DNA of 64,000 nt, from the NCBI RefSeq assembly GCF_017571465.1, contig NZ_JAGETV010000009.1, positions 1-64,000 on the forward strand, in the 5' to 3' direction. Positions 5,470 to 32,223 of the stretch are shown here, piece by piece. Made by a program: the position numbers and the translations under genes. The stretch's first letter is position 1, and each line of letters starts with the position of its first letter. This DNA comes from Thiomicrorhabdus marina (lineage in GTDB: Bacteria; Pseudomonadota; Gammaproteobacteria; Thiomicrospirales; Thiomicrospiraceae). The notes beneath the pieces were generated by a model. The model had not been told where the DNA came from and searched no databases. It saw nothing but the letters and a program-made list of their open reading frames with translations.

Positions 5470-7083
5470 ATGGAATTTATAGAAAAATTAAATGGTACCG
5501 AAAAAATGGGTCAAGAACTGAAGCCAAAAATCAAAATCAAACAGCGCCCGACAGGGCTGATCATCTTGGATGGTTGGGGACATCGTGAGGAACGCGAACA
5601 CAATGCTATCGCGCAAGCCAATACGCCAAACTTCGATAAATTAATGGCGAACAACCCAAACACCTTGATCAGTACTTCAGGCATGGATGTTGGTTTACCG
5701 AGCGGCCAAATGGGTAACTCAGAAGTGGGTCATACCAACCTAGGTGCCGGCCGAGTGGTTTATCAGGAACTAACCCGCATTCAGAAAGATATTGATGATG
5801 GCCGTTTTTATAATAACAACGCGTTGCACAATGCGGTTGATAAAGCAATTCAACGAGACCGAGTAGTACACATCATCGGCTTGCTATCAGACGGCGGTGT
5901 ACACTCGCACATCGCGCATATTAAAGCTGCACTAAAACTTTCTTCCGAGCAAGGCGCAAAAACTGTTCTGCATATTTTTGCTGACGGCCGTGATACTGCA
6001 CCACAAAGCGCCCCTAAATACATTGCCGAAATCGAAGCATTTATTGCCGAACTTAAAGGCGATGTTAGCATCGGCTCAATTATCGGCCGTTTCTATGCGA
6101 TGGATCGCGATACTCGCTGGGACCGAACTGAAGCGGCTTATAGTCTGATTGCCTGCGGCAAATCGGAATTTAAAGTAGAGTCGGCACAGGAAGCAATTGA
6201 CTTAGCTTATGCGCGCGGCGAAACCGATGAATTTATTCAACCGACGTCAATCCTAAACAAGAAAGGCAAGAAGAGTAAAGTCAAGGACGGTGATTCCGTT
6301 ATTTTCATGAATTTCCGCTCTGATCGTGCTCGTCAATTGACTCGTGCCTTTATCTTAAGCGACTTTGCCGAATTCCACCGTTGTGCAACACCGTTACTTT
6401 CTGCATTTGTGACCCTAACCGAATACCATAAAAACTTCGAGAATTTCGGCGCGACTATTGCATATCGTCCAACCAACTTGAAAAACACTTTTGGCGAAGT
6501 CATCGCCAACTACAAGCTACGTCAACTACGTATTGCCGAAACCGAAAAATACGCGCATGTCACTTTCTTCCTAAACGGCGGCGTTGAAGCACCATACCGT
6601 GGTGAAGATCGTATTCTGATTCCTTCGCCAAAAGTTCGCACCTACGATCTGCAACCGGAAATGTCGGTACCTGAACTGACCGAAAAATTGGTTGAAGCGA
6701 TTGGTTCAGGAACTTACGACACTTTCGTTTGTAATATCGCTAACCCGGATATGGTCGGACACAGCGGTATTCTTGAAGCTTGTATCAAAGCAGTGGAAGC
6801 GGTTGACGAAGCGCTAGGCAAAATTCTAGACGCCATCGAAAAAGCCGGCGGCCAATGCATTATCACCGCTGACCACGGCAATATCGAAATGTTGCAAGAC
6901 CCTGAAACTGGCGAGCCATTCACTTCGCACACTACTTTCCCGGTTCCACTTGCATACTTCGGGCCGAAAAAAGTGGCACTACGTGACGGAGGTCGACTAC
7001 CCGATGTTATGCCAACCTTACTGGACTTGATGGAAATCCCTCAACCAGAAGAAATGGACGGCGTAAGCTTAATTGCGAAATAA
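5470..7083 (+). CDS. gpmI: Phosphoglycerate mutase, 2,3-bisphosphoglycerate-independent
   Basis: Interconverts 3- and 2-phosphoglycerate in glycolysis and gluconeogenesis through a Mn-dependent phosphoserine. Counted from the first ATG it has 537 residues, about 20 more than usual. The catalytic serine is in MGNSEVGHTN (Ser84); metal ligands lie in LILDGWGHRE-like (30-40) and TADHGNIEML near the C-terminus. The ATG at 5506 gives 525 residues and fits the promoter better, because the -10 box abuts the first ATG. Neither start has a good Shine-Dalgarno sequence. Divergent from the rhodanese gene, as in E. coli. Confidence 0.95.
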   Translation: MEFIEKLNGTEKMGQELKPKIKIKQRPTGLIILDGWGHREEREHNAIAQANTPNFDKLMANNPNTLISTSGMDVGLPSGQMGNSEVGHTNLGAGRVVYQELTRIQKDIDDGRFYNNNALHNAVDKAIQRDRVVHIIGLLSDGGVHSHIAHIKAALKLSSEQGAKTVLHIFADGRDTAPQSAPKYIAEIEAFIAELKGDVSIGSIIGRFYAMDRDTRWDRTEAAYSLIACGKSEFKVESAQEAIDLAYARGETDEFIQPTSILNKKGKKSKVKDGDSVIFMNFRSDRARQLTRAFILSDFAEFHRCATPLLSAFVTLTEYHKNFENFGATIAYRPTNLKNTFGEVIANYKLRQLRIAETEKYAHVTFFLNGGVEAPYRGEDRILIPSPKVRTYDLQPEMSVPELTEKLVEAIGSGTYDTFVCNIANPDMVGHSGILEACIKAVEAVDEALGKILDAIEKAGGQCIITADHGNIEMLQDPETGEPFTSHTTFPVPLAYFGPKKVALRDGGRLPDVMPTLLDLMEIPQPEEMDGVSLIAK

Positions 7084-26819: not shown

Positions 26820-26842
26820 GACAACACGAATAGCAGGCATAA

Positions 26843-26874
26843 AAAAACCCGCAAGACAAAACTAGCGGGTTTTT
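26843..26874. terminator. Bidirectional terminator
   Basis: Ten-base stem AAAAACCCGC / GCGGGTTTTT, T runs on both strands. It serves the small gene and the convergent TonB receptor operon. Confidence 0.85.
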
Positions 26875-26897
26875 ATGAATGAATAAATAGCTAGCCG

Positions 26898-29057
26898 TTA
26901 AAAATCGACACGCATATTCAATTTGATATTACGCCCTTGCGCCAAAATGTAACCCTTATAAGTATCTAGGAAATCAACATAAGCGCGATCAAACAGGTTC
27001 TCCACAGCAAAATTCAGATACACTTTTTCTCTACCTTGAGTGGCAATTTGCGCACTATAACGCAAATTCCATAGCGCATAACCTTTGGTTGAGGCCGTAC
27101 CGATAGGCATACTGTCAAACTGCGAGAAAGGCTCATATTGGCCGGCTGCATCCTTGCCTGCAACTAGCTTAGTTTCCAAAGCCAACTTCTGCTTACGTAA
27201 TGCTTGCCAGTCAGGTGCGAAATAGCTATTTTTCAATAACAGGTTATTGGCAGGAATCAAAGGCAGATCACGCGATTGGTTCTGATCTCGGCCTTGAATA
27301 ATTTCCATTGCCATACCCGTGGCAAACTGCTGATTCCAGCGGTGGTCAATATTAAACTCGAACCCGCGAATCACGGCATCGGTCTGCTGTGCTTTCATCA
27401 CCTGTAGCGTCGCACCGCTCTCTTCGGACGTCGTAGTTACATAGCTACCGTCTGGGTTAACTTCATTTTCCAGATAGATATAGTTATCAACCATATTTTG
27501 ATAAACCGTTGCTACCATCTGCGTTTGACCGTTATCCCAACGTAATGACAGGTCTGTATTCAAAGCGGTTTCAGCTTCTAAATCCGGGTTACCGATTTGA
27601 TAGGCTTGCACGCCGCCATGCTCACCGCCGGCATAGAGTTCAAAAATGCTCGGCGCACGAAAGCCACGTGCAATATTCCCTGCCAAACTCCAATCGTCAT
27701 TCAAACGATAAGTTGCCCCAAGAGATCCTGACCAAACAGCAAAATCACGTTCGTTATTGCTTTCATCGAAAATCCCTTCGTCAATGAAGTGTTCGTTACT
27801 GTCATTTGCCGGCGCATAAACATCATGCCAATCGTAACGCGCTCCAAACTGCACCAGCCAACGGTCGTAATCCGCTTCTTCAAATAGATACACTGCTTTT
27901 TTATCGACATCGGCACTTGGCGTTAAGTGACCACTTAATAAACGCTGTTCTTTTTGCGAAACCTCAATACCGATTTCCCCTTCAAAATCGCCGATTTTTG
28001 GGTGTTCAGCAGCTAGCTTCCAATCATGACGCTCAACTTGTAGATCCAGATAATGCTCAGTGCCCTTATCCTCCTCCATGTTTTCATATGGCAAATCATG
28101 CGAAGCTTCGCGAGTATTTTTAGTAAAACTCCACGACGGTTTAATAACCCAATCGCCTTGGAAAACTTCCGCCGCTAATTGCGTTTCCTGATTTTCTAAC
28201 ATCTGCCCAGCCGCAACCGCTTCAAAAGAATCGCCGCCTTCGTAATGAATCCCTAGATAGTTCTGCTTGGCGTGCCAAACACTATGACGGAGCGTCACTT
28301 GCCCCCAATCTTCTTGATAACCTAAGCCGATATTAGCCGCACGATTCTGAAAGTTCGTATAAGGCACTTCACCGACAAACAGCGGACGACTGTCCGCAGG
28401 CGCTCCCGGAACCGGATTGTTCGCCGTATCGGCATTCGGCACTTGATAGTTATCACCCTTACGAATCGACGCTCCGACTGTTATTGCAAACTTATCGGAA
28501 CCGGCGCCCATTTTCACGCCTTGGTGAATTTCGCTGTTATTGCTGTTGTATTCAATGGTCGCCGAACCTCTAGCTTCTTGGCCGAAAGGCATCTCCGGCG
28601 CTAATACATTCACCACACCGCCAAGCGCTTCCGAACCGTACAACACACTTTGCGGGCCTCTAACCACTTCGATTCGCTCTGCCAGATATGGATCAACATT
28701 CGGTAAGTGACGCGTTCCGTAAGCTTGATAATCAGTACTGGCACCATTCGATAAGACCTTGACGCGCTCGCCGGTCATACCGCGAATCACCGGTTTACCG
28801 GACTGTGCGCCAGCCGATAAATTATTCACACCCGGCGTGTTTGCTAACATTTCGCCTAAGGAACCACTTTCCAGCTCGGCTTTCTCATCGCCATTCAAAC
28901 TATCAATTTGTGACGGCACCACAAAGGCTTCGTGTTCGTGAATCGGCGAAGCCGAAATCGTAATATTTTTAAGAGTCGTCGCATCTTCTGCATAGACAGC
29001 AGGAACGAATGAACCGCTTGCAATCGCCAATGCCAGCGTTAATTTATTTAATCGCAT
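26898..29057 (-). CDS. TonB-dependent outer-membrane receptor (ZnuD-like)
   Basis: A 719-residue beta-barrel receptor. The signal peptide ends at VYA23; a TonB-box-like segment (LKNITISAS) follows, then a plug domain (about 45-155: PVIRGMTGERVKVL, RIEVVRGPQSVLYG) and a 22-strand-type barrel ending in Phe719. The plug motif and layout resemble the zinc receptor ZnuD more than siderophore receptors, and HEHE near the mature N-terminus could bind metal; the substrate is still inference. It is the last gene of a minus-strand run from fetA. Confidence 0.85.
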   Translation of the reverse strand: MRLNKLTLALAIASGSFVPAVYAEDATTLKNITISASPIHEHEAFVVPSQIDSLNGDEKAELESGSLGEMLANTPGVNNLSAGAQSGKPVIRGMTGERVKVLSNGASTDYQAYGTRHLPNVDPYLAERIEVVRGPQSVLYGSEALGGVVNVLAPEMPFGQEARGSATIEYNSNNSEIHQGVKMGAGSDKFAITVGASIRKGDNYQVPNADTANNPVPGAPADSRPLFVGEVPYTNFQNRAANIGLGYQEDWGQVTLRHSVWHAKQNYLGIHYEGGDSFEAVAAGQMLENQETQLAAEVFQGDWVIKPSWSFTKNTREASHDLPYENMEEDKGTEHYLDLQVERHDWKLAAEHPKIGDFEGEIGIEVSQKEQRLLSGHLTPSADVDKKAVYLFEEADYDRWLVQFGARYDWHDVYAPANDSNEHFIDEGIFDESNNERDFAVWSGSLGATYRLNDDWSLAGNIARGFRAPSIFELYAGGEHGGVQAYQIGNPDLEAETALNTDLSLRWDNGQTQMVATVYQNMVDNYIYLENEVNPDGSYVTTTSEESGATLQVMKAQQTDAVIRGFEFNIDHRWNQQFATGMAMEIIQGRDQNQSRDLPLIPANNLLLKNSYFAPDWQALRKQKLALETKLVAGKDAAGQYEPFSQFDSMPIGTASTKGYALWNLRYSAQIATQGREKVYLNFAVENLFDRAYVDFLDTYKGYILAQGRNIKLNMRVDF

Positions 29058-29143
29058 TATTTCTGTTTCCCAAAAAATAAACCTTTCACAAACCCTAGGG
29101 CTTACGAAACAGTCAAAAAATGTTAAATCTGGTTAATTAATTT

Positions 29144-29506
29144 TCAGACAGAAAAGAATGGCGGCGCACGACTTTGAAAAGCAGAATAGAATGCAGGCGG
29201 AGGAGTGAAACGATATACCGGCAGTTGATAAATCGGCGGTTGAAATTTAGGCAGTTGAACAACAAACGGTGATGCATCAATGCGCGGGTCAGCGGCTTTC
29301 TCAACCGCATCACACAACTGAGTATGCTCATGAAAAGGGTGTACGCTTGAGTGCAAAACCGAAATGGTCTGCGCCACCAAAAACAGCGTCAATACAGCAA
29401 GCCAAGACACATAATTTAAACGCAAATTACCGACTCGGCGCTGCTGTAGCCAGTGCGCTAAGCTCAACAAATTCTGATTGTCGGCGATATGTGTCGGCTG
29501 TTTCAT
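29144..29506 (-). CDS. Small His/Cys-containing membrane protein (DUF2946-like)
   Basis: A 120-residue protein with one hydrophobic segment (about 33-52) followed by an outside-facing HSSVHPFHEHTQLC motif rich in His plus one Cys, then a proline-rich tail ending RAPPFFSV. This layout resembles DUF2946-type proteins found beside copper or zinc genes; the assignment is tentative. It starts 12 bases after the fusion gene stop with no clear ribosome-binding site, which suggests translational coupling, and lies 86 bases before the TonB receptor gene. A metal-binding or delivery role is inferred from motif and neighbours. Confidence 0.55.
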   Translation of the reverse strand: MKQPTHIADNQNLLSLAHWLQQRRVGNLRLNYVSWLAVLTLFLVAQTISVLHSSVHPFHEHTQLCDAVEKAADPRIDASPFVVQLPKFQPPIYQLPVYRFTPPPAFYSAFQSRAPPFFSV

Positions 29507-29518
29507 AAATTCAAATTA

Positions 29519-30802
29519 TCATTTGTGTTCAGTTATTTTATACAAGTCGTCAAATAGCTCAGCAATTTTTTCACGATGGTGTGCTTCCATCCAATCAGTA
29601 CCGCCAAATAAGGCGTAGCGAATCTGGCCTTGAGCGTCGATTAAATAACTGCTTGGATAGGCGAAAACCTGCCAATCCTTAACCGCTTGCCCTTGCGGGT
29701 CAAGTAGTATCGGGAAATTCAAAGTGAAGGTCTTCTCAAATTCGGCAATCGCTTCTTTCGACTCCCCCAAATTAACCGCCAGTATTTCAAACAGCTTGCC
29801 ATCCAAACTCTGTTTCAACATCGCCATCGACGGCATTTCATGCACGCACGGCGGACACCAGCTGGCCCAAAAATTAACCAACACCACTTTACCCTGCATA
29901 GCCTGTAAATTAACCGAGTGGCCTTCGGTATCGAATAATTGCAACGGCAGTTTCTGCTTGCCTTGATAAGGTTTTAACTGCAACGAACGGGTCTGTTGCG
30001 ATTGCGCTGTGTCGCTCGAATGACTGAGTCGTCTTGACTGCTGCAGATATGGCACTTGCCAACGCATCGCTTCAATTAAATAGTCGGCAAACTGTTTGGA
30101 GATTTGCTTCTCGACCGGCATCGCATCAGGGCGAAAATAAAAACGGTCGCGAACTTCCGGAATCAGCTGCACAAAGACATCACTGCCTTGTTTCTCTAGC
30201 GCGCTTTGCAATTCCGGCAAACGCCAACGGAGCGAAGTCAATTCCCCTTGCACAATGGAAATCGGCAGATTGGCATTTTCCACCTGCGGCCAAAATTCAG
30301 CTTTTTTACCCGGTTCAGGCGTATTCAAATAAAGGTTGGGGTTAAGTAGCAACATTCCCATAAAACGGATTGGCTGCTCTAATTGCATCTTTTCGGCCGC
30401 TTTTAATGCCAAAATCCCGGCTTTATTCGGCGCAATCAACCAAATAGGTAAATCGACATGAGCCATGTCAGCGATTAGCGTCGTAATCCACTGTACCGAG
30501 ATCTGTTCAAAAGCACTGACTGTCGGCGCAAGAAACAGCGCCTCATAAGGGTTGAGTAGCGTCACTTCGATGCCCCTTTCGGCAAACTGTTGTGCTAGCT
30601 CTCGCTCCTCTGCTAATAACCCATTTTCCGAAGGAAGCCATAACACTTGTGCATACGCTTTTCCTTCCGGCACGGCGGTGTAGACAGGAATTTCCATTTC
30701 ACCGACTTCAAGCACCGATTCCTGCCATTGCACAGCCTGAGCCTGGGTAGTCGTAAGCAGGAAAATAAAGCCTAAAAACACTCTAGAGAATAATCGTTGC
30801 AT
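29519..30802 (-). CDS. Exported fusion: alpha/beta-hydrolase-like domain plus TlpA/ResA thioredoxin
   Basis: A 427-residue protein with a signal peptide (to about AQA23). Residues 40-250 look like an alpha/beta-hydrolase fold (strands YAQVLWLP, PIWLIAPNKAG), but the nucleophile elbow reads IAPNKAG instead of GxSxG, so it is probably not an active esterase. Residues 280-425 are a TlpA/ResA-like thioredoxin with WCPPC at 315-319 and the cis-proline in AYPSSYLID. It abuts fetB directly. A periplasmic disulfide-reducing or metallochaperone-maturing role is plausible. I know no characterised protein with this fusion. Confidence 0.8.
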   Translation of the reverse strand: MQRLFSRVFLGFIFLLTTTQAQAVQWQESVLEVGEMEIPVYTAVPEGKAYAQVLWLPSENGLLAEERELAQQFAERGIEVTLLNPYEALFLAPTVSAFEQISVQWITTLIADMAHVDLPIWLIAPNKAGILALKAAEKMQLEQPIRFMGMLLLNPNLYLNTPEPGKKAEFWPQVENANLPISIVQGELTSLRWRLPELQSALEKQGSDVFVQLIPEVRDRFYFRPDAMPVEKQISKQFADYLIEAMRWQVPYLQQSRRLSHSSDTAQSQQTRSLQLKPYQGKQKLPLQLFDTEGHSVNLQAMQGKVVLVNFWASWCPPCVHEMPSMAMLKQSLDGKLFEILAVNLGESKEAIAEFEKTFTLNFPILLDPQGQAVKDWQVFAYPSSYLIDAQGQIRYALFGGTDWMEAHHREKIAELFDDLYKITEHK

Positions 30803-31612
30803 CTATTTTTTCGCCTTAACCAAGACATCAAGGTGTAGTCGTTGACGCTCATCAAACAATTTTCGTGAAGCGAGCTCCACGGCAATCAGAGTACCGGCTG
30901 CTGTCGAAGTCGCTATCAATAACATAATCATAATCTGGTATTTAACCGCTTCCAGAGGGTCAGCACCGGCTAAAATTTGCCCCGTCATCATCCCTGGTAA
31001 GGAAATAATTCCCGCTGCCACCAGCATATTAATCACCGGAATCATTGCCGCATGCAGACTTTGTTGTTTAATGAATTTCATCGACTCTTTAGCCGTATAA
31101 CCCAGTGCCAACTGCGCTTCAATTTTACTTTTCAACTGGCGAGCATTACGTGTCAGATTATCCAAACCGACACCAATCGCGGTCATACTATTGCCAAGCA
31201 ACATACCCAAAAGCGGAATTGCATACTGTGGTTGATACCAAGGTTCCGGTTTAACCACAAGAGTCAAAACTAACACCAACAGAACCAAGGCAGTCATGGA
31301 AAGTGATAGCAGACCAATTAAGACACTACGGTATTTTTGGAAACGATACTGTTGTCGTTTAGCGATTTCATAACCGGCAGCCAACAGCATAATCAAGCCA
31401 ACCAACGTCACCCAAATTGCGCTATCAGCATTAAAAACCCAGCTCAGCCAGATTCCCATAAATGACAATTGCACGACAGTACGGATATTCGCCCAGTAAT
31501 ATTGACGCACGTGACTGAAACCCTGCAACCACAAAACGGCACCCATTAAAATTACCAAAACCGACAGCATCGCCAAGTCCCAGTAACTAATTAAAATCAT
31601 TTCCGTCTGCAT
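30803..31612 (-). CDS. fetB: FetB-type ABC exporter permease (UPF0014)
   Basis: A 269-residue inner-membrane protein with about seven hydrophobic segments. ISLPGMMTGQILAGADP is the family signature, and NSMTAIGVGLDNL is also typical. With FetA it forms an ABC exporter that in E. coli helps iron homeostasis under oxidative stress. Two bases separate it from fetA, and its stop abuts the next gene, so the run is tightly coupled. The ATG lies close to the fetA stop. Confidence 0.9.
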   Translation of the reverse strand: MQTEMILISYWDLAMLSVLVILMGAVLWLQGFSHVRQYYWANIRTVVQLSFMGIWLSWVFNADSAIWVTLVGLIMLLAAGYEIAKRQQYRFQKYRSVLIGLLSLSMTALVLLVLVLTLVVKPEPWYQPQYAIPLLGMLLGNSMTAIGVGLDNLTRNARQLKSKIEAQLALGYTAKESMKFIKQQSLHAAMIPVINMLVAAGIISLPGMMTGQILAGADPLEAVKYQIMIMLLIATSTAAGTLIAVELASRKLFDERQRLHLDVLVKAKK

Positions 31613-31614
31613 GC

Positions 31615-32223
31615 CTAGCTCTCCGTCGCGTAGAGTTCTTCAATCGAGCAGCAGTACGTCGGACATGCAAGGCGCTCGCGTTGCGCTTGATCATGACTGA
31701 TCCAGATTGCTGCAGCTTGGTTTTGTTGCAGATAATCTTGCAAAAGCGCTTCAACTTTTAAGGTACTTGTCGGGTCAAGATTGGCACTAGTTTCATCCAG
31801 TAACAAAACTTTTGGCTGAAATTGTAACCCTCGTAATAATGCCAAACGCTGTTTCTCACCACTAGAAAGTTGATCAACATGTTGCTGCAAAATACTATGC
31901 TGTAATCCGACCTTTGCTAAATCGTTCTCGGTTGGCACTTGTTCAAAATGTTCTGCAACCGTATCCAGCCACCACGCTGTTTCCGCCGGGAAATACATCA
32001 CTTGCCGCCGCCATTGCGGCGCACTGATGCTGTACATATCCTGCTGCTGTAAAGAGACCGAACCTTGATGCTCAATCAAATCCGCAACCGCTTTTAACAA
32101 ACGCGATTTACCGCTCCCGGAAGGCCCATACAAAAGCCAAAGCTGCTCGGCCTCTATCTGCCAAGAAACCGGTTTAGACATGCCTTTAGCCTGTAGATTC
32201 GTTATCTGTAATAAAGCAGACAT
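31615..32223 (-). CDS. fetA: FetA-type ABC exporter ATPase
   Basis: A 202-residue ATP-binding subunit. Walker A is GPSGSGKS (33-40), the signature LSSGEKQRLALLRG and Walker B VLLLDE, with the switch His in WISHD. Short length and pairing with a UPF0014 permease identify it as FetA/YbbL-like. ATG 32223 is chosen over TTG 32229; AGGA is eight bases ahead. It is the first gene of the five-gene minus-strand run fetA-fetB-fusion-small membrane protein-TonB receptor. Confidence 0.88.
   Translation of the reverse strand: MSALLQITNLQAKGMSKPVSWQIEAEQLWLLYGPSGSGKSRLLKAVADLIEHQGSVSLQQQDMYSISAPQWRRQVMYFPAETAWWLDTVAEHFEQVPTENDLAKVGLQHSILQQHVDQLSSGEKQRLALLRGLQFQPKVLLLDETSANLDPTSTLKVEALLQDYLQQNQAAAIWISHDQAQRERLACPTYCCSIEELYATES

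Follow-up and report, generated by a model that had tools for sequence, protein, structure and literature searches.

A putative metal-responsive arrest peptide encoded upstream of a ZnuD-like receptor gene in Thiomicrorhabdus marina

In the 64,000-nucleotide stretch of Thiomicrorhabdus marina DNA analysed here (the window), five genes follow one another on the minus strand; they encode a FetA-like ABC ATPase, a FetB-like permease, a fusion of a hydrolase-like and a thioredoxin-like domain, a small protein that contains the sequence HSSVHPFHEH, and a TonB-dependent receptor. A sequence-only reading of the same DNA located the five open reading frames (ORFs) and their close spacing correctly, and proposed that exporter, thiol protein and importer may act together to move or buffer one metal across the periplasm. 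The question raised by this locus is whether such a system exists and, if not, what the small protein does. We find it reasonably probable that the latter is a zinc-responsive nascent-chain regulator of the ZnuD-like receptor, transcribed with it from a promoter of its own; as judged from the sequence, regulation by ribosome arrest suits it better than a role as a buffer.

A small gene with a constant partner

The gene in question (29144-29506; all features described here are on the minus strand, with positions of the window) encodes 120 amino acids and is predicted to be a regulatory upstream ORF specifying a metal-responsive RAPP arrest peptide. It is followed, after an intergenic leader (29058-29143), by the gene for the receptor (26898-29057), whose Pfam matches are to the TonB barrel (1.6e-46) and plug (6.6e-22). 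The protein carries a predicted metal-binding motif, HxxxHPFHxHxxxC, represented in the window by H52..H56-P-F-H59-E-H61..C65 (29312-29353), and a C-terminal RAPP, R113-A-P-P116 (29159-29170), four residues ahead of the stop. In the family alignment, which comprises 38 sequences from 36 genomes (two of them contribute a second copy), H52, H56, H59 and C65 are invariant, and H52 and C65 remain so throughout a class alignment of 33 sequences. The final APP is likewise invariant in the family, with R in at least 90% of the sequences. Of 66 homologues, 63 have an exact RAPP among their last 16 residues, against 0.018 expected from shuffling, although the profile used across the class was built with the RAPP columns, which biases the homologues it found towards RAPP.

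The distance between the two motifs is conserved as well. From C to R there are 47 residues in 37 of the 38 family sequences and 46 in one, and class-wide the spacing is 46-49 in 26 of the 27 sequences scored (89 in the remaining one; L158 was left unscored). The spacer itself shows a mean pairwise identity of 17%, and the length ahead of the C ranges from 38 to 70. A constant length combined with so little identity fits the geometry of the ribosome tunnel rather than a folded carrier.

The gene is tied to receptors over a wide taxonomic range. The receptor was found at E 1e-60 in 38 genomes (24 of the genus and 14 others of the family), and in 36 of them the small gene lies directly 5' of it; it was not found in G035 and G042. 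Two elements of the sequence-only reading are supported: the receptor is for a metal, probably zinc, and the His-rich protein linked with it carries a metal-type motif. A profile search with a threshold of E 0.01 returned matches in 45 of 369 gammaproteobacterial genomes, representing 35 of 271 genera. At 29 of 30 class loci the next gene encodes an outer-membrane receptor, and in the other the contig ends. These partners are 12 TonB receptors, two of which come from the genus, and 17 members of a second, Omr-like type; of the 29 labels, 6 TonB and 15 Omr-like ones were assigned by a script, 6 TonB ones by blastp and 2 Omr-like ones (L146, L150) by eye. The Omr-like label is based on shared sequence motifs, and these proteins may correspond to the 'omr' of PMC9817125. 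A search of plasmids with one small-protein homologue gave no match. In two genomes a second small RAPP gene is located 3' of the receptor gene (G053, L097 1188-1529; G057, L099 1051-1392).

We propose that the small gene is an upstream ORF that regulates the receptor, and that its product takes no part in transport. Its N-terminal hydrophobic segment, recognised by eye, would target the nascent chain to the membrane. By analogy to published RAPP peptides, the ribosome would pause at the RAPP motif, and at that moment HxxxHPFHxHxxxC, 47 residues back and presumably just clear of the tunnel, could meet a metal. In the absence of zinc a long pause would allow the ribosome to open a structure in the leader, or to block termination, so that the receptor is made; binding of zinc would release the ribosome and lower the synthesis of the receptor, as has been proposed for CruR and copper. 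The pair would be transcribed from its own promoter, with read-through from fetA-fetB-fusion also possible in the clade of the window.

Promoter, leader and the identity of the metal

A separate promoter is suggested by the presence of TATAAT ahead of the small gene in relatives, and by its absence from control genes. Of 38 small genes, 15 have the hexamer within 24 nucleotides (nt) 5' of the ATG, against 0.92 expected, and none of the 77 control genes has it there. In this comparison 13 of the small-gene starts were placed at the homologous start by eye with the upstream sequences already in view, six of them one or two codons out, while the controls kept their mechanical starts. With exact starts the count is 16 of 38, against 0.77 expected, always at a distance of 5-10 nt from the ATG, and among the 24 small genes with mechanical ORF starts it is 10. 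The window has GATAAT, a -10-like element, 8 nt ahead of the ATG (29515-29520). The small gene and the receptor gene probably have their own promoter just 5' of the former. A TATAAT so close to the ATG and devoid of a -35 element predicts a near-leaderless transcript, perhaps dependent on an activator.

The palindrome ACCAGGCCTGGT, located 5' of the small gene, was considered as an operator and rejected: it is not specific to the locus, as some relatives have up to 718 copies per genome. It is abundant in, for example, G018, G030 and G015, intermediate elsewhere, and present in 0-2 copies in the clade of the window (one in G000, the genome of the window itself), and its reversed control is absent from every genome of the genus and family that was searched. 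Of the 45 copies present in 19 loci, 28 fall between ORFs, though ORFs of at least 100 amino acids cover 88.6%. The repeat resembles cyanobacterial HIP1.

The leaders between the small gene and the receptor gene are more structured than the upstream regions of control genes (mean z -1.32, n=36, vs -0.13, n=77; four of the receptor starts gave leaders of >200 nt and are possibly wrong). The ribosome-binding site of the receptor gene is also less accessible than in shuffled leaders (0.20 vs 0.365, 24 tested). In the window the leader contains an 11-bp hairpin at 29084-29109, and an intrinsic terminator-like hairpin with a U tract (26836-26880; -15.6 kcal/mol, z -4.87) lies 3' of the receptor gene. 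A conserved hairpin between the two genes was sought and abandoned, as the window sequence fails to align with its relatives.

Zinc is the likeliest metal to be sensed and imported, as judged by the relatives of the receptor and by the genes near its homologues. Among solved structures ZnuD is the best match to the receptor (9.1e-28), and two receptor histidines, H117 (38 of 38 sequences) and H480 (37 of 37), align to H100 and H499 of the high-affinity site of ZnuD (PMC4557270). On the other hand, the Asp that precedes H100 in ZnuD is replaced by Arg116 in the window receptor. An N-terminal HxH has His at its two places in 30 and 32 of 38 receptors. Outside the family, 10 TonB receptors have ZnuD as their best match, these being partial sequences that score under its cut-off.

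At two class loci (L162, L168) a Zur-type and a ZnuA-type gene are divergent from the small gene; the former match the Zur model best, and the binding proteins match the AztC, MntC and ZnuA models, all below cut-off. At L143 a ZnuA-family gene (Pfam 9.1e-8) lies 3' of the Omr-like gene, and the same arrangement was recognised by eye at L146 and L149. In G043 the sole exact Zur-box match of the genome precedes the small gene, with a one-mismatch site beside zur/znuA, and Zur boxes are found 5' of homologues also in G036 (one mismatch) and G059 (two mismatches). For Fur boxes, the best matches 5' of the small gene have three (G049) and five (L038) mismatches.

The genome of the window has Zur-type boxes with two mismatches 5' of a COG0523-type GTPase gene (cobW by Pfam) and of a gene for a His-containing lipoprotein-like product. 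The contig concerned, G000:C36 (L192, L224), carries a Zur-type gene, the COG0523-type GTPase and a lipoprotein-like gene whose product ends in HEHEE, with the Zur-type boxes between them. The locus discussed here has no such box, so this genome seems to have a Zur regulon from which the small gene-receptor locus is excluded, and we infer that control by arrest could stand in for Zur there.

Known systems and competing explanations

The published systems are compared here as they are described in the portions of the cited papers on which we drew. RAPP has been established experimentally as a stalling motif in ApdA and ApdP (PMC7897499, PMC10951233), which, like the small protein, are encoded by a small upstream ORF and carry RAPP close to their C terminus (PMC7897499, PMC10951233, PMC10987492), but are tied to protein localisation and located 5' of secDF2, and a metal motif is not among the features described in those portions (PMC10951233, PMC10987492). 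CruR of Bordetella pertussis (bp2923, DUF2946) is, like the small protein, small, reported to be exported, and encoded 5' of a TonB receptor gene, with a C-terminal RAPP at a fixed distance from its motif (PMC9426467). In the published model copper at CXXC relieves the RAPP arrest, and changing the 45-residue CXXC-RAPP spacing by five residues strongly cuts the effect of copper; counted from the first Cys, this spacing is 48, against 47 from C to R in the small protein (PMC9426467). In contrast to CruR, with its CXXC, its copper and an intergenic region of 162 nt, the window has HxxxHPFHxHxxxC, probably zinc, and 86 nt (PMC9426467). According to a 2024 paper, arrest itself was not directly shown for CruR and CutF (PMC10987492).

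The small protein has the RAPP and the spacing that characterize CruR and DUF2946; it was not filed as a member of that group because it lacks CXXC and falls below the Pfam cut-off. As to the position of first gene in the operon, also characteristic of that group, the small gene starts 12 nt past the fusion in the window, but relatives have a -10-like element and the loci of 12 genus genomes are split. A comparison of the small-protein and DUF2946 profiles gave E 6.4e-7 over the stretch from C to RAPP, a score helped by three rows of the small-protein alignment that are themselves DUF2946-like. The homologue in G227 exceeds the Pfam DUF2946 cut-off (25.6 vs 23.7 bits) and a near relative in G080 falls just under it (23.4), while CxxC occurs at the place of the conserved Cys in a few class members (L163-L165, L167, L169). 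Of 14 DUF2946 proteins compared, the 9 with both motifs have 43-46 residues after CxxC.

CutF of Rhodobacter capsulatus is similarly an exported nascent metal sensor with a proline-rich C terminus and a leader stem-loop that controls the next gene, but it has a CxxxC copper motif and a multicopper oxidase gene downstream, and metal enhances its pausing (PMC9973294). The survey of CutF-like proteins already contains Cys, His or mixed motif clusters and TonB-like neighbours, the His-only clusters preceding HupE/UreJ genes (PMC9973294). A link of the wider DUF2946 group with zinc is not wholly new either, since the DUF2946 gene CC2720 of Caulobacter is already in print as the first gene of the Zur-activated czr/zntA zinc efflux operon (PMC4176598); there the operon serves efflux and is activated by Zur, and the portion of the paper considered proposes no arrest-peptide role. 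ZrgD (DUF2607) is another small protein, encoded in the zinc-starvation operon zrgABCDE of Vibrio (PMC9817125), and weak DUF2607 matches were obtained for 8 of 38 family sequences (best 1.8e-4) and 7 of 33 class homologues (best 2.0e-4). One such match followed in detail scored 22 bits against a Pfam cut-off of 24, and the class-wide DUF2607 search found the domain in 1 of 274 genomes. The word 'zinc' has 0 occurrences in the main texts of PMC9426467, PMC9973294, PMC10987492 and PMC10951233, and the receptor-linked His/Cys branch was not met in the parts of the literature examined, which included no search aimed at zinc combined with arrest.

Several observations weigh against a zinc-responsive arrest peptide at this locus. 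Besides the bias of the homologue set towards RAPP, the relatives are not independent samples. The small protein of the window has no Pfam match, the DUF2946 model included, and instead of CXXC it has a single conserved Cys with His. Its GATAAT is not significant alone (p 0.48), and the homologues with TATAAT show no -35 enrichment (2.76 vs 2.92 expected). The leader in the window is not unusually folded (z -0.37), and its receptor ribosome-binding site is no more hidden than in shuffles (0.43 vs 0.30). No Zur box was found within three mismatches anywhere in the window. The reversed control pattern outnumbers the Zur box in five of six genomes, so that two-mismatch Zur sites in these six genomes are at chance level. 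Finally, the heme-receptor model TIGR01785 scores the window receptor at 222 bits (cut-off 317), above the 158 bits of the NCBIfam ZnuD model (cut-off 950), and heme-receptor models also outscore ZnuD for the two sister-genus receptors tested.

The receptor is intermediate between ZnuD and heme receptors: the name ZnuD-like given to it by the sequence-only reading holds with respect to its best solved relative, but not at the NCBIfam cut-off, and the heme model scores higher. An alternative, in which the small protein is indeed an arrest-peptide regulator but heme or copper is both taken up by the receptor and sensed by the peptide, draws on these scores and on the precedent of CruR, which senses copper. 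The two conserved receptor histidines cannot decide between zinc and heme, because ZnuD and heme receptors share motifs, owing to which ZnuD itself was once misannotated as a heme transporter (PMC4557270). We nevertheless hold heme or copper to be unlikely, as the partners across the class are ZnuD-like, the best solved relative is ZnuD, Zur-type and ZnuA-type genes stand at two loci, an exact Zur box is present in G043, and the motif is His-rich with a single Cys.

A periplasmic zinc chaperone was our first reading of the small protein, and was dropped in light of the literature on RAPP. In its fuller form it holds that a stable, membrane-anchored periplasmic carrier takes zinc from the receptor to an ABC importer and that RAPP is a docking tail. 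The His/Cys motif and the constant pairing with receptors would suit a carrier, to which the N-terminal HxH of the receptor could be a hand-over partner, but a length of 47 residues kept in 37 of 38 sequences at such low identity suits the tunnel better, and arrest at RAPP has been demonstrated in ApdA and ApdP (PMC7897499, PMC10951233) and deduced from mutants in the case of CruR (PMC9426467). We therefore consider a carrier quite unlikely.

We see an even chance that the small protein and its homologues, from 35 of 271 gammaproteobacterial genera sampled, form a family of zinc-sensing arrest peptides which, through binding of zinc by the nascent chain, control outer-membrane zinc receptors of ZnuD-like and porin-like types as a second layer of control, beside or instead of Zur, and to which ZrgD of vibrios may belong.

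The neighbouring genes

The remaining genes of the row probably serve other functions. The fetA-like gene (31615-32223) encodes an ABC ATPase (ABC_tran 1.8e-24) and the fetB-like gene (30803-31612) a UPF0014 permease (PF03649, 8.9e-77, 258 bits, above the Pfam cut-off), which confirms the families implied by the earlier label FetAB; the scores of 142 and 149 bits fall short of the NCBIfam equivalog cut-offs for FetA (292) and FetB (410). The fusion (29519-30802) was correctly recognised by the sequence-only reading as well. Its structure models (pLDDT, predicted local distance difference test, 93.5 and 94.0) contain an alpha/beta-hydrolase fold and a TlpA/ResA-like domain, and Foldseek retrieved ResA (2.7e-13) and dienelactone hydrolase (1.3e-10). 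The Ser of the nucleophile elbow is missing in all 37 fusion members (Asn in 32, Gly in 4, Asp in 1), while WCPPC is present in all 37. With its thioredoxin fold and CxxC the protein agrees with the definition of TlpA/ResA proteins, though it scores short of the NCBIfam cut-offs for ResA and TlpA; it probably acts as a thiol oxidoreductase in the periplasm, with the hydrolase-fold domain as a non-catalytic partner.

In other genera the fusion gene is found apart from the receptor and fetAB genes, beside unrelated genes; in one such genus the neighbours are presumably MsrAB- and SelO-like, as judged from their sequences. Three fusion-gene upstream regions have a Fur-box match at no more than five mismatches, against 0.3 expected. 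The genome of the window has a second fusion copy, 31% identical (G000:C81:99209-100414; L071), adjoining genes that by eye resemble an ABC importer.

To establish how often the five genes occur together, which the sequence-only reading had named as a check, 95 genomes were searched for the fusion, the receptor and UPF0014: that of the window, 31 others of the genus, 28 of the family and 35 of the class. The five genes are three modules, namely fetA-fetB, the pseudo-hydrolase/TlpA fusion and the small protein-receptor pair. Six of the 32 Thiomicrorhabdus genomes (G000, G011, G013, G023, G024 and G031) have all five genes in an unbroken row, which adds five species to that of the window. The 28 genomes from other genera of the family never combine them, as no fusion match lies between neighbouring receptor and UPF0014 matches there. 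In G019 and G026 fetAB adjoins the fusion, and the small gene-receptor pair lies 2.6-2.7 kilobases (kb) off beyond two opposite-strand genes, and in 10 of the 32 all three modules lie apart with opposite-strand genes between them, which gives 12 genus genomes with all modules so separated. Three of the 32 have fetAB and the small gene-receptor pair and no fusion orthologue, and 11 lack a part or are too fragmented. Within G036, G043, G051 and G059 fetB is found no more than about 10 kb from the pair.

A tree of 25 genomes, built on the receptor, FetB and UvrD and thus partly on proteins of the row itself, unites the six contiguous genomes with G019 and G026 in one clade (support 1.000). The simplest history is thus a single origin of the arrangement, with interruption at a later time. 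The two opposite-strand genes inserted between the fusion and the small gene in G026 (L033 2542-4852) and G019 (L034) encode glycine/proline-rich or repeat-like products, as judged by eye. In G024, the closest relative and a single-contig genome, the frame of fetB is broken (L032, ~6325-6926), while fetA, the fusion, the small gene and the receptor have full-length frames.

The intergenic gaps of 2, 0, 12 and 86 nt allow co-transcription of the five genes in the window, and these gaps and the six contiguous genomes, all of one clade, are what speaks for a single functional operon with the metal-handling role suggested by the sequence-only reading, but we consider such an operon very unlikely, given the 12 genomes in which opposite-strand genes split the modules, the three genus genomes devoid of a fusion orthologue and the other genera in which it lies apart from the receptor, the broken fetB of the closest relative and the separate -10 ahead of the small gene. 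The row looks like neighbours rather than one conserved system, and its best reading is that fetAB and the fusion are separate functions, made contiguous with the small gene-receptor pair in one Thiomicrorhabdus clade.

Control of zinc in Gram-negative bacteria is mostly described in terms of repression by Zur. If the small protein is a zinc-responsive arrest peptide, the nascent protein itself would report the metal to the cell, and synthesis of the receptor could be adjusted at once. An unnamed small gene, matched in 45 of the 369 gammaproteobacterial genomes sampled, would thereby acquire a role, a function would be suggested for proteins of the ZrgD type, and the RAPP mechanism, linked with copper and with protein export, would be extended to a further metal.

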